A DNA stretch of 64,000 nucleotides from Acidobacteriaceae bacterium (GTDB lineage: Bacteria; Acidobacteriota; Terriglobia; Terriglobales; Acidobacteriaceae). This document shows, one piece after another, positions 15,541-19,515 of the stretch. The notes under the pieces are model-generated. The model saw nothing but the letters and a program-made list of their open reading frames with translations, was not told where the DNA came from and made no database searches. The translations under genes and the position numbers were made by a program. Where the stretch lies: NCBI GenBank assembly GCA_030041515.1, contig JASHNS010000014.1:1-64000 (forward strand). Reading direction: 5' to 3'. Positions within the stretch are counted from its first letter, which is position 1. The number at the start of each line of letters is the position of its first letter.

Positions 15541-16896
15541 CTATTGGGACTGCGTCAGCTCTTCCATCGCCTCATTGCCGATGTTCAGGCCGGCATTGTC
15601 ACTGGCGCGCCGTCTGCGCCACCAGAGGCATATCAGGTACGAGATCGCACCCGTCGCCGCCGGAACCACAAATACCAGGATGCGCAGCAGGTCGCGCAGT
15701 GCTCCGACGTGCGCGTGGCCTGCCAGCGCGACTACGTCGTCCGCACCGGCAAATTCAAGCACCACGAGGAACGCCAGCGTGGCGCATCCCAGCGCCGTGC
15801 AGAATGGCTGCTGGTAGGGCCAACGCAGAACGTTGTGCGGCCTGAAATCGAGAGAGATCAGCTTCTCGATGAATGGCCACACATAGAGCAGCACGAACAT
15901 CATCGCCGGAAAGAAGAAGCCGGGCCAGAAAACTTCAGGCACCAGATATCCCCCGATGCGAAAATTCACGCCCGGGAACAAACGCATGGCGCCTTCCACC
16001 CAGCCCAGGTACCAGTCCGGCTGAGCCCCTGGCAAAATCGCTACCGGATTGTAAGGACCATAGAGCCAGACCGGGTCGATCTGCACCAGTCCTCCCAGGA
16101 AGGCGATGAGCGCAAAGACCAGGAAAAACAGGCCCAGCGACTTGAGCGTGTAGGAGGGCCAGAGCCTCGATCCGACGATCAGCTTTTCAGTGCGCTGCGG
16201 TCCGGGGAAATTCGTGTGCAACTGGCGCCAGATGATGAGCAGGTGCACGCCGATGAGGGCCGCAATGAGCGCCGGAACGACAAAGATATGCAGCGCAAAG
16301 AATCGCGGCAGCGTTGCGGCAACCGGGACCGTGCCGCCAAAGAAGATGAACGTGAGCCAGGGCCCGATCACGGGAACAGAGAGCAGAATCGCGTAGCCGA
16401 TGCGCATACCGGCTCCGGAGAGCAGATCGCCGCACATCGAGTAACCGAAATAGCCGTTGGCAATGGCCAAAATCAGCAGCGTCACGCCTACAATCCAGTT
16501 CAGCTCCCGCGGTTTGCGGTAGGCGGCGGTGAAGAAGATGCGCGCCTGATGCACAATGATCGCGGCAAGGAAGATATCGGCAGCCCAGTGATGCATCTGC
16601 CGGATCAGCAGGCCAGCGGGAACGTCGAAGCTGATGTGCAGCACCGACCGGTAGGCAGCCGCCATCTTCACGCCATCCAGCGGCGTGTAGCTCCCGTGAT
16701 AGATAACCGGCGTGGTCGTGTCTTTGAAGAACATCGCGAGATACACGCCCGTGATGATCAGAATCACGAAGGAGTACAGCGCGACTTCGCCCAGCATGAA
16801 CGACCAGTGATCGGGGAAGACATGGTTCATCGCCCTGCGGACGAATTTGGACAGGCGCAGGCGCGAATCAACAAACCGAGCGGTGGATTCGATCAT
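15541..16896 (-). CDS. qcrB: Cytochrome b subunit of an actinobacterial-type cytochrome bc complex
   Basis: A 451-residue multi-helix quinol-oxidising subunit that includes both the haem-binding part and the C-terminal part (about eight helices). Haem ligands: the RQMHHWAAD helix with a second His 14 residues on, and LHIFVVPALIAALIGVH with 14 residues between the histidines, as in b6-type proteins. The quinol-site motif is PDWY (in PDWYLGWVEGAMRLFP) rather than PEWY, as also known in actinobacterial QcrB. The ATG at 16896 overlaps the Rieske stop by four bases (ATGA). The frame is open further upstream to 17334, but that region is Rieske coding sequence in another frame. Confidence 0.9.
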   Translation of the reverse strand: MIESTARFVDSRLRLSKFVRRAMNHVFPDHWSFMLGEVALYSFVILIITGVYLAMFFKDTTTPVIYHGSYTPLDGVKMAAAYRSVLHISFDVPAGLLIRQMHHWAADIFLAAIIVHQARIFFTAAYRKPRELNWIVGVTLLILAIANGYFGYSMCGDLLSGAGMRIGYAILLSVPVIGPWLTFIFFGGTVPVAATLPRFFALHIFVVPALIAALIGVHLLIIWRQLHTNFPGPQRTEKLIVGSRLWPSYTLKSLGLFFLVFALIAFLGGLVQIDPVWLYGPYNPVAILPGAQPDWYLGWVEGAMRLFPGVNFRIGGYLVPEVFWPGFFFPAMMFVLLYVWPFIEKLISLDFRPHNVLRWPYQQPFCTALGCATLAFLVVLEFAGADDVVALAGHAHVGALRDLLRILVFVVPAATGAISYLICLWWRRRRASDNAGLNIGNEAMEELTQSQ

Positions 16897-18176
16897 GGCA
16901 TCCCCCAGAATCCGGGTCCGGGCGGAGCGGAAAAACCATCGCCGGCATGAAGAATGCCCTGGCTGTCCGCGTAGAGTGGCAACTGCGGCAGAGGCCGCGC
17001 CGCAGGACCTCCGGTGGGCTGCGCGCCGTTGAGCACGTCGAATGTGGATTGATGGCAGGGGCACATCAGCAGATGGGTCGTGGTTTCGTACATGCCGACC
17101 GCGCAACCGGCGTGCGTGCAGACCCGGGAATAGGCCAGATAACCCTCCGGAGCCCAGTTCTTCCGCTCCGCCGGGAGGCGCAGCAGGTCTTCTCGAACAC
17201 GAAGCAATACCGTTTGGGCCTTCTCTGATCCGATCGAACCCTCGGGAAAGACGAGCATCATGCTGCCGGGACGGAGGCTGTTGATGGACACAGGCGTGTT
17301 GTCGAGGCTCATCAGGCGCTGGCCGCGCTGCCACACCCTGGAGTACAACGTCGTGTCCGGCGCAAAGCCCATTGACTTCATCAGCGACACGACAAACGCA
17401 GCGATGAAGCCTGTGCCAAGAACTCCCATCCCCGTCAGCAGCCGGCGGCGCTGAACATCCTCCACACCGGAGCGGAAGACGACAGCGGCCGCGGCGCTCT
17501 CGCGGGGCGATGACGCGGCCGGTTCGCGCGGGGCAACGGCTTCCTTATGCGCCGTCAGCCAGTGGGACCATAACACCAGGGCCGCACCAGCGCCGGCAAG
17601 AAACAGGGCGAGATTTCCTCCCAGCAGCATGTTGCTGCCGCCGGTCCAGTAAATGAACAGAAAACCAAATCCCGCCGCGGCCATCACCGCGATGGCGCAC
17701 GCAACGAGCACCGTTCCCACGCGTTCCTGGCGAAGCGGGCTAATTCCCTGATCCAGATTCCGGTCCTCGGCCCGCTCAGACTCGCCGGCGCGTCGGCCTT
17801 GTTCCCTCTGCTCGTGCTTCTCGATCACCGCGTCCAGGGCAGCGACGGAAACCTGGGCAGCCCTGAATGACGCTTCCGCGCCGTGCACCAGCAGGCGACC
17901 GGCCTGGCTCTCTGCTTCCTGTTCCAGAGAGCGAGGTTCTTCGCTTTTTCGGAAGTCTGACTCGACTGGTGGATGCGGCGTTTGCATGGATTCTTTCCGT
18001 GCGGTTCGCCCGATCCCTTTCACCAGCGAGCCCACAGCTTTCCAAAGAAGGACCCCGCCAAAGAGCAGCCAACTCTCCGCGCGGGCCACGCGCAGATCGC
18101 GCTCCACAGTTCGATCTGCGGGCCGCCGTTCGTCGGCGGTGGGCCGTTTCTCCTGATTTGGATTCTCTTCGCTCAT
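16893..18176 (-). CDS. qcrA: Rieske iron-sulfur protein with long N-terminal extension and three membrane helices
   Basis: A 427-residue protein, more than twice the size of a classical Rieske subunit. The [2Fe-2S] site is complete: Cys353 and His355 (CTHAGC) with Cys372 and His375 (CPCH), plus the disulfide pair Cys358/Cys374. Membrane helices are seen at about 153-178, 184-209 and 245-271. The first 150 residues are hydrophilic, charged and probably cytoplasmic. Three helices and a gene order of cytochrome c, Rieske, cytochrome b are the QcrCAB pattern of Actinobacteria. It accepts electrons from quinol and passes them to the c-type subunit. The ends overlap both neighbours by four bases. 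Confidence 0.9.
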   Translation of the reverse strand: MSEENPNQEKRPTADERRPADRTVERDLRVARAESWLLFGGVLLWKAVGSLVKGIGRTARKESMQTPHPPVESDFRKSEEPRSLEQEAESQAGRLLVHGAEASFRAAQVSVAALDAVIEKHEQREQGRRAGESERAEDRNLDQGISPLRQERVGTVLVACAIAVMAAAGFGFLFIYWTGGSNMLLGGNLALFLAGAGAALVLWSHWLTAHKEAVAPREPAASSPRESAAAAVVFRSGVEDVQRRRLLTGMGVLGTGFIAAFVVSLMKSMGFAPDTTLYSRVWQRGQRLMSLDNTPVSINSLRPGSMMLVFPEGSIGSEKAQTVLLRVREDLLRLPAERKNWAPEGYLAYSRVCTHAGCAVGMYETTTHLLMCPCHQSTFDVLNGAQPTGGPAARPLPQLPLYADSQGILHAGDGFSAPPGPGFWGMP

Positions 18177-18922
18177 CCCTTTCCGCCTCGCTCAATCCAC
18201 ATGGCCACGCCAATCGTGAGAAAGGCGATGACCCACGCCGCGAATCCTTCTGCAACGGGCCCATACCAGTGCATGGCCGAGCCGCCCGGGGCCGGCGGAC
18301 GCTGAGCGTATTTCACGTAATCCGCAATGGAGGCCACCTGCTGGTCGGTCAGGACCGAAGGTGGAAAATTGGGCATGGGTCCAGGCCCCCAGCGAATCGC
18401 CCCCGCCACAAGAGCCCGCGACTTGTGCGACAAGTTGGGCGCATTCACCCCGTCGAAGACCAGCGCACCTCCGCGCACGTCGGTGCGATGGCATGCCGAG
18501 CAGTACATCGCGTACAAATCGCCGCCTTCGCTCAGGTTGCCACCCTGCATGGGGATCACCGCAATCTTTTGCGTTACATATCCCGCGACATCTTTCATAT
18601 CCGGTACCGAAAGGATGCGCCCAAAGCTGGGCATGTGGCTGGGGCCGACCTCGATCGCCGTGAGCACCTGTCCGAGGTTGTGCTCGGCCTGCAGATTGGG
18701 GCCGGCGATGCTGACCACACCGCTGACGCCCTGGCCATGGTCGCCGTGGCATTCGGCGCAGTGCTGGGCAAAGATCTGTTGTCCGCGTGCAAGCGGATCG
18801 CCGGCGTTGGGCGCTGCCTGACCCCGGACAACCGGCACGCAAAATGCCACAAAGAAAGCGAGGGAAGCGAAGCTCGCCCCCTTCGGCACACGGCCGCCTG
18901 AACCACCAGCTTTGGTCCGCAC
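18173..18922 (-). CDS. qcrC: Dihaem cytochrome c with C-terminal membrane anchor
   Basis: Two class-I cytochrome c domains, each with one haem motif (CAECH and CSACH), and likely axial methionines (HMPSFG, PMPNFPP). The C terminus ends in a membrane helix (GFAAWVIAFLTIGVAMW) followed by basic residues, just as in actinobacterial QcrC. The start is uncertain: the frame is open to 19144, but no ATG lies close to the signal sequence FASLAFFVAFCVPVVRGQ. A GTG at 18922 (249 residues) is given here; a GTG at 18889 (238 residues) would fit the signal peptide better, and neither has a strong ribosome site. Together with the next two genes it should form a quinol:cytochrome c oxidoreductase, possibly joined directly to an oxidase. 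Confidence 0.82.
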   Translation of the reverse strand: MRTKAGGSGGRVPKGASFASLAFFVAFCVPVVRGQAAPNAGDPLARGQQIFAQHCAECHGDHGQGVSGVVSIAGPNLQAEHNLGQVLTAIEVGPSHMPSFGRILSVPDMKDVAGYVTQKIAVIPMQGGNLSEGGDLYAMYCSACHRTDVRGGALVFDGVNAPNLSHKSRALVAGAIRWGPGPMPNFPPSVLTDQQVASIADYVKYAQRPPAPGGSAMHWYGPVAEGFAAWVIAFLTIGVAMWIERGGKG

Positions 18923-19071
18923 GCGATCTTCGATGCCGATGCGTTTCCGATGTGCTGTTCCAGGCCGTCGGCGCCGCGGCCTTGCTGTAGCAACCAGCCC
19001 GAGTTGCACGACAGCGTGGGCACCCGTTCCCGGCGCAAGTGCTTCTGATAGGTTTTGTGAGGTGCCGCTCC

Positions 19072-19515
19072 ATGAAAGCGTCAGAGCCCAAGTTTGTCTC
19101 CTTCCGTTCGCTCCTGGGTGATGCGCTGCGGGGCGCGCGAGCACTCGGGTTGGGTGCGCTGCTCAGCGTTGTGGCGGCCCTGGTCTGTGGGTGCACAGGC
19201 GGTCGGGGCCTGGCGGTCTACTCTGTCGCCGTCGGCGGTTCTCCGCGCCCTGGAAAGCAAGTGATCGCTCAATACAAGTGCGGCACCTGCCATACCATTC
19301 CCGGCATACCCCACGCGGACGGCGTCTTCGGTCCCCCGTTGAACTTCCTCGGTCGCCGGACGATGCTGGCGGGCAATCTGCCAAATACCCCCGCCAATCT
19401 GGTGCAGTGGGTCATGTCGCCGCAGTCGATGAAGCCGGGAACCGCGATGCCGGATTTGGGACTGGATGAGCGCCAGGCCCGCGACGTCGCGGCTTATCTG
19501 GAAACCCTGCGCTAG
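19072..19515 (+). CDS. Monohaem cytochrome c, membrane-anchored or lipoprotein
   Basis: A 147-residue protein. The ATG follows GAGGTG at suitable spacing. An N-terminal hydrophobic segment (LGLGALLSVVAALVCGC, residues about 22-38) ends in a Cys pair that could be a lipobox. One haem motif CGTCH and a probable axial Met in GTAMPDLG are present, followed by the closing helix ARDVAAYLETLR. It is transcribed away from the bc-complex genes across a gap of about 150 bases. Likely role: shuttling electrons between the bc complex and a terminal oxidase not encoded in this window. Confidence 0.85.
   Translation: MKASEPKFVSFRSLLGDALRGARALGLGALLSVVAALVCGCTGGRGLAVYSVAVGGSPRPGKQVIAQYKCGTCHTIPGIPHADGVFGPPLNFLGRRTMLAGNLPNTPANLVQWVMSPQSMKPGTAMPDLGLDERQARDVAAYLETLR

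Follow-up and report, generated by a model that had tools for sequence, protein, structure and literature searches.

In a 64,000-nucleotide stretch of DNA from a soil bacterium of the Acidobacteriaceae (hereafter the window; positions 1 to 64,000 of contig JASHNS010000014.1, assembly GCA_030041515.1), the genes qcrC, qcrA and qcrB encode a genuine cytochrome bcc complex in an unusual host, and gene neighbourhoods suggest that this complex feeds an unusual oxidase that in relatives is served by an alcohol dehydrogenase. We consider it probable that this actinobacterial-type bcc was acquired by an ancestor of a few Acidobacteriaceae and that electrons most likely pass from quinol through QcrC, possibly with a lipoprotein cytochrome c in between, to a caa3-type oxidase. 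A respiratory module regarded as actinobacterial is hereby found in Acidobacteriota, whose usual complexes are bc1-like or alternative complex III. The c-type electron link would here be encoded apart from bcc, a naturally occurring example of such a separation. The candidate partner belongs to a haem-copper oxidase clade with intact active-site ligands and neither canonical proton-channel residue, which makes proton uptake a testable question. No publication on bcc in Acidobacteria was noticed in the literature listings that we searched. Genomes, contigs and loci are designated below by G, C and L numbers.

Family membership of the QcrCAB proteins

The three genes lie on the minus strand in the order c-A-b: qcrC (18922-18173; GTG start, 249 aa) encodes a dihaem cytochrome c subunit, qcrA (18176-16893; 427 aa) a Rieske iron-sulfur subunit and qcrB (16896-15541; 451 aa) a cytochrome b subunit. 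Both junctions (qcrC/qcrA and qcrA/qcrB) are 4-base ATGA overlaps, and the open reading frame (ORF) coordinates bear out the gene order and overlaps described in a first-pass annotation of this DNA. A promoter scan found no sigma-70-like site, and terminator-like sites numbered 6 against 3.6 expected.

QcrB matched NF050120, the NCBI model for actinobacterial QcrB, with 536.9 bits (cut-off 500; E 4e-161), and Corynebacterium glutamicum QcrB in a PDB search with an E-value of 5e-125, so that the match is not due to chance. Nine actinobacterial bcc sequences in the PDB scored 407-421 bits, whereas b6 and bc1-type proteins reached at most 94 and 80 bits, respectively. The histidine pairs of QcrB are found at residues 102 or 103/116 and 203/218. 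QcrC resembled mycobacterial QcrC (E 6e-23) and has CXXCH motifs at residues 55 and 141, preceded by a signal-like hydrophobic N-terminal part and followed by a hydrophobic C-terminal anchor, both read from the translation; the dihaem cytochrome with a C-terminal anchor was thus correctly anticipated. In QcrA, the Rieske ligands C353/H355/C372/H375 and the disulfide C358/C374 are invariant columns of an alignment (A1) of the window protein with 39 of 61 candidate relatives; the cluster boxes CTHAGC...CPCHQS are encoded at 17052..17120 on the minus strand. Three hydrophobic peaks beyond residue 150 agree with the membrane helices of an AlphaFold model built from 40 sequences (147-178, 182-207 and 245-268), in line with the three-helix Rieske subunit proposed earlier. 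The model had high confidence in the Rieske head and the first two membrane helices, and when it was searched with Foldseek, 11 actinobacterial QcrA chains ranked top among solved structures. The soluble head is also similar to the Thermus Rieske protein (1nyk, 3fou; E 2.5e-20; TM-score 0.81 by target), a comparison that covers the head domain only.

Judged by their sequences, QcrC, QcrA and QcrB are members of the actinobacterial bcc family, not of the classical bc1 or b6f groups. With the complexes of Mycobacterium and Corynebacterium they share the three subunits, the c-A-b order, the dihaem c, the three-helix Rieske protein and the P-D-x-Y motif, and QcrB could be aligned over residues 9-431. 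However, QcrB of the window ends near residue 451 (535-573 in solved chains), the charged N-terminus of QcrA is longer than in its nearest relatives, a free monohaem lipoprotein gene stands beside qcrC, and the likely partner is a caa3-type rather than an aa3-type oxidase. The bcc-type identity given in the first-pass annotation therefore stood, with profiles, PDB scores and trees behind it, whereas the PDWY motif of the QcrB Qo site (residues 293-296; 16009..16020, minus strand) did not hold as an actinobacterial signature, since the corresponding residues are PDVY in the aligned C. glutamicum chain and PDFY in that of M. tuberculosis.

The N-terminal extension of QcrA (approximately residues 1-146; 17739..18176, minus strand) is charged, with 25 K/R and 27 D/E in residues 1-150, and contains no recognisable Pfam or NCBIfam domain. 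Two candidates were rejected: QcrA_N (15.6 bits) lay outside the extension, and SepX/GlpR reached 18 bits over residues 78-186, both far under cut-off. Between 69 and 153 residues precede the first membrane helix in the acidobacterial copies and 22 in locus L053, and in four other QcrA relatives the whole protein is just 283-321 aa. Between the window and the same-genus genome G303, the extension is 39% identical and the remainder 73%. Structure prediction of these residues, which had been recommended, gave mostly low confidence, with helices predicted at 22-60 and 111-139. The unusually long and charged terminus lacking a known domain was thus confirmed, but it proved to be a tail of variable length rather than a conserved domain. 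We interpret the extension as a rapidly evolving tail, probably cytoplasmic by analogy with the topology of its relatives and perhaps containing one membrane-associated helix.

Distribution and phylogeny

Only one of 297 Acidobacteriota genomes, that of the window, passed the NF050120 cut-off; the next score was 288.5 bits and the others were at most 165. The 288.5-bit protein (L021; G191:C114) is a cytochrome b encoded beside a 204-aa Rieske protein, and it formed a long branch on the outgroup side of the tree. At an E-value below 1e-100, QcrB was detected in 7 of the 398 family genomes and 4 of 79 genera, including 2 of the 12 genomes of the window's own genus (its own and G303, with QcrB 81% identical). 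A scan of named sequences kept 80 loci, four of them acidobacterial (59-71% identity); the remainder mostly carried actinobacterial labels, apart from two Eremiobacterota, one Thermoanaerobacterales and one uncultured bacterium. L050 and G465 were treated as one genome, as were L051 and G522. The bcc genes of Eremiobacterota were found in two metagenome-assembled genomes (MAGs; L096 and L070), and the order COX3-qcrA-qcrB-CtaG-like-qcrC-COX1 in L096 indicates a displaced qcrC.

QcrB trees were built from 90 of 92 rows (the partial L146 and L150 were excluded) and then, more carefully, from 50 of the 92 after thinning of near-copies, with three acidobacterial cytochromes b as outgroup. The seven acidobacterial rows formed one clade (100/99) that was sister to L053 (100/99), and a midpoint-rooted QcrA tree of 43 rows gave the same arrangement, again with seven acidobacterial rows in a single clade (100/99). 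The phylogeny called for by the first-pass annotation thus placed the clade inside the bcc family, in trees made up without proteobacterial bc1 or plastid and cyanobacterial b6f rows. The QcrB tree gave no firm position for this clade relative to Eremiobacterota and other Actinomycetota rows. L053 is a MAG labelled Actinomycetes; however, its genome (G659) had zero WhiB matches compared with four in the actinobacterial control L072, and L053 was rejected as proof of an actinobacterial donor because of this doubtful taxonomy. An approximately unbiased test rejected a single clade of all Actinomycetota-labelled rows (p 0.010), a result that hinges on L053. Acquisition by transfer is proposed mainly because the distribution is patchy.

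It is highly implausible that the qcr genes derive from a contaminating or misbinned actinobacterial contig. Their family is actinobacterial in most genomes and many of the genomes here are MAGs, but the locus is also present in G303, where it adjoins the same M61-type gene as in the window, and in five further genomes of the family, and the contig has Oar-like receptors (read from ORFs). The shared M61-type neighbour, together with Acidobacteriaceae MAGs among the named relatives, also supports the acidobacterial host that had been surmised.

The candidate partner oxidase

The suggested search for cytochrome oxidase genes elsewhere revealed five COX1-family genes in the window's own genome, among which the caa3-type oxidase of contig C31 appeared to be the best-supported partner. 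Its COX1 (L015:10097-12052; own genome C31:76099-78051) carries GHPWVY and a Gln at the K-channel Lys position, and is orthologous (65%) to the COX1 directly downstream of qcrCAB in G522. In L055, a COX1 of this type (hereafter C31-type) follows qcrCAB after one MarR-type gene, and at a contig end of G613 (L183), qcrC, monohaem c and C31-type COX1 are consecutive. The qcr genes and this oxidase therefore share a contig in three cases (L149/L051 of G522, L055 and L183). C31-type COX1 occurred at an identity of at least 65% in 13 of the 398 family genomes (the next level being 48%), namely in 6 of the 7 genomes with bcc and in 7 of the 391 without it (Fisher p 2e-9, uncorrected for kinship). The linked COX2 had CuA and haem c motifs in all nine cases examined.

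A probable monohaem c-type lipoprotein is encoded at 19039..19515 on the plus strand (probable ATG start 19072), divergent from qcrC, an arrangement present in 8 of 8 loci with that flank visible. Its nearest relative in the own genome is the monohaem c of the C31 oxidase operon (49%), with the COX2 haem c domains of C51 and C31 ranking next.

In the usual operon, COX1 and COX3 are followed by genes for a 141-aa membrane protein, monohaem c, a pyrroloquinoline quinone (PQQ) dehydrogenase, XoxJ-/XoxG-like proteins and COX2; the xoxF/J/G names used here reflect position and mutual similarity rather than family assignment. The dehydrogenase block was complete in eight genomes (G303, G340, G430, G568, G498, G489, G467 and G465), partly visible in G413 and L055, and not visible in G473 because of a contig end. 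In the own genome, G522 and G613 it is absent, and monohaem c is directly followed by COX2. Elsewhere in these genomes, a search for a xoxF orthologue gave no match in the own genome and G522 and only relatives of at most 40% identity in G613; a TIGR03075 search had no match in the own genome, and control genomes also had none above cut-off. The bcc genes were present in 3 of 3 genomes without the block vs 3 of 8 with it, numbers too few to tell. According to an excerpt of PMC10875860, xoxF-cox linkage in Acidobacteria has already been published: the XoxF3-cox clusters described there combine CoxI, CoxII, CoxIII, CytC, XoxG and XoxJ with a PQQ methanol dehydrogenase, and the C31-type operons are of like make-up. 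Unlike those clusters, the own genome and two others have bcc and no dehydrogenase part, and the COX1 clade has GHPWVY. Iron oxidation, a role suggested by an excerpt of PMC8239418, was dropped as a candidate once the PQQ dehydrogenase genes were found in the operon. The conserved membrane protein (141-149 aa; L015:9065-9490, with homologues in L149 and L055) had no Pfam or NCBIfam match in its L015 copy.

Analysis of proton-channel residues revealed that Trp replaces the D-channel Glu (at a position which we take to be E286 in Rhodobacter numbering) in 13 of 13 C31-type COX1 proteins, and that the K-channel Lys (K362) position is occupied by Gln in 12 and Thr in one. The active-site His and Tyr are retained wherever the sequence is complete, two G465 fragments lacking some columns. 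Twelve COX1 rows of the 44-48% identity group have Asn for D132, keep the Glu and have Gln for the Lys, and nine further rows drawn from the phylum keep the Glu and have Gln for the Lys, with D132 variable. Taken together, these 21 rows (L164-L174, L176 and L199-L207) all keep the Glu and all have Gln at the K-channel Lys position, while D132 is lost in 20 of them; most of these genes adjoin XoxG-like and CtaG-like genes. The motif GHPWVY was absent from a literature text search, but so was the well-known GHPEVY, and this zero says nothing about novelty. In Rhodobacter mutants, loss of the E286 or K362 residues impairs the canonical enzyme; an alternative proton path or a non-pumping mode should therefore be considered for the C31-type oxidase, whose substitutions (Glu to Trp, Lys to Gln/Thr) would imply altered proton handling. 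Loss of the K channel has been described in some archaeal family A oxidases (PMC8239418, excerpt).

Proposed electron path and alternatives

In the chain that we favour, quinol would be oxidised at QcrB/QcrA with Q-cycle bifurcation, and electrons would pass to the dihaem QcrC, which would hand them to the haem c of COX2 either directly or via monohaem lipoproteins; they would then move through CuA to haem a3 of the caa3-type oxidase. We infer this chain, from quinol via bcc and cytochrome c to caa3, in preference to an obligate bcc-aa3 supercomplex of the classical kind, in which QcrC would dock directly onto the CuA site of aa3 and free cytochrome c would play no part. The latter appears distinctly unlikely. 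All three subunits are homologous to supercomplex subunits, and in G522 and L055 the qcr genes lie next to, or close to, those of the oxidase; however, all nine linked COX2 proteins examined have a haem c domain, marked by CXXCH, fused to them, free monohaem lipoprotein genes, for which an electron-carrying role seems plausible, stand beside both qcr and the oxidase, and the partner COX1 is just 40-44% identical to two actinobacterial and one Eremiobacterota COX1. The actinobacterial supercomplex has been called obligate because there is no free cytochrome c there (PMC8361435, excerpt).

It is also unlikely, though less so, that bcc feeds another own oxidase (the A1-type caa3 of C51 or the A2-type of C15) and that the C31-type link is incidental. 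Both of these oxidases have K362 intact and C51 also has E286, and cultured Acidobacteriaceae couple A1 caa3 genes to bc1 and A2 genes to alternative complex III (PMC8407424, excerpt). Nevertheless, the C15 oxidase is clustered with alternative complex III genes, a separate cytochrome b/haem c gene is present on C10, and co-occurrence and linkage point to the C31 type. As in the bc1-A1 caa3 and ACIII-A2 caa3 superoperons of Acidobacteriaceae, gene order here couples a quinol:cytochrome c reductase with a caa3 oxidase, but the reductase is bcc, and both the usual A1 Glu and the A2 YS motif are missing from the oxidase.

Several observations weigh against the chain from bcc to the C31-type oxidase, or limit it. 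The best NCBIfam models for QcrA (NF050121, 208.6 bits) and QcrC (NF050122, 129.7 bits) scored under their cut-offs of 275 and 200; because these cut-offs are NCBI naming thresholds, such scores narrow the claim to a divergent member of the family rather than exclude membership. The trees did not single out a donor phylum. Common ancestry inflates the test of co-occurrence between oxidase and bcc, the C31 oxidase and the qcr genes of the own genome are on separate contigs, and in G599 (87% complete), which has bcc, the C31-type oxidase was not found. Other haem-copper oxidases of the own genome (C51, C15 and C4) are possible partners, and three bcc-positive genomes retain the dehydrogenase genes, so that bcc is no strict replacement. 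Most interest attaches to the pairing of bcc with a rewired oxidase of altered channels, which is also where certainty is lowest. We raise only tentatively, and with some doubt, the possibility that an oxidase which arose as electron acceptor for a PQQ (lanthanide-type) alcohol dehydrogenase was rewired to the quinol pool by the horizontally acquired bcc; in the absence of the D-channel Glu and K-channel Lys, energy would be conserved mainly at bcc, with the oxidase pumping little or using an undescribed proton route.

Other respiratory genes were located in the same genome. The alternative complex III genes and the A2-like (YSHPAVY) caa3 oxidase form one cluster at C15:30000-48000 (L014; read from ORFs). 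On C4, the residues at the D132 and K362 positions of another COX1 (L016:3870-5615) are Arg and Glu, respectively, and the gene after it reads as VKOR-like. The cytochrome b on C10 (L018:7262-8464), a second one, is fused to a haem c domain and followed by a CtaG-like gene near the contig end. Finally, C62 encodes a long COX1-family protein that, by reading, resembles quinol NO reductase (L017:2699-4981), near Ric/ScdA-like and Crp-like genes.

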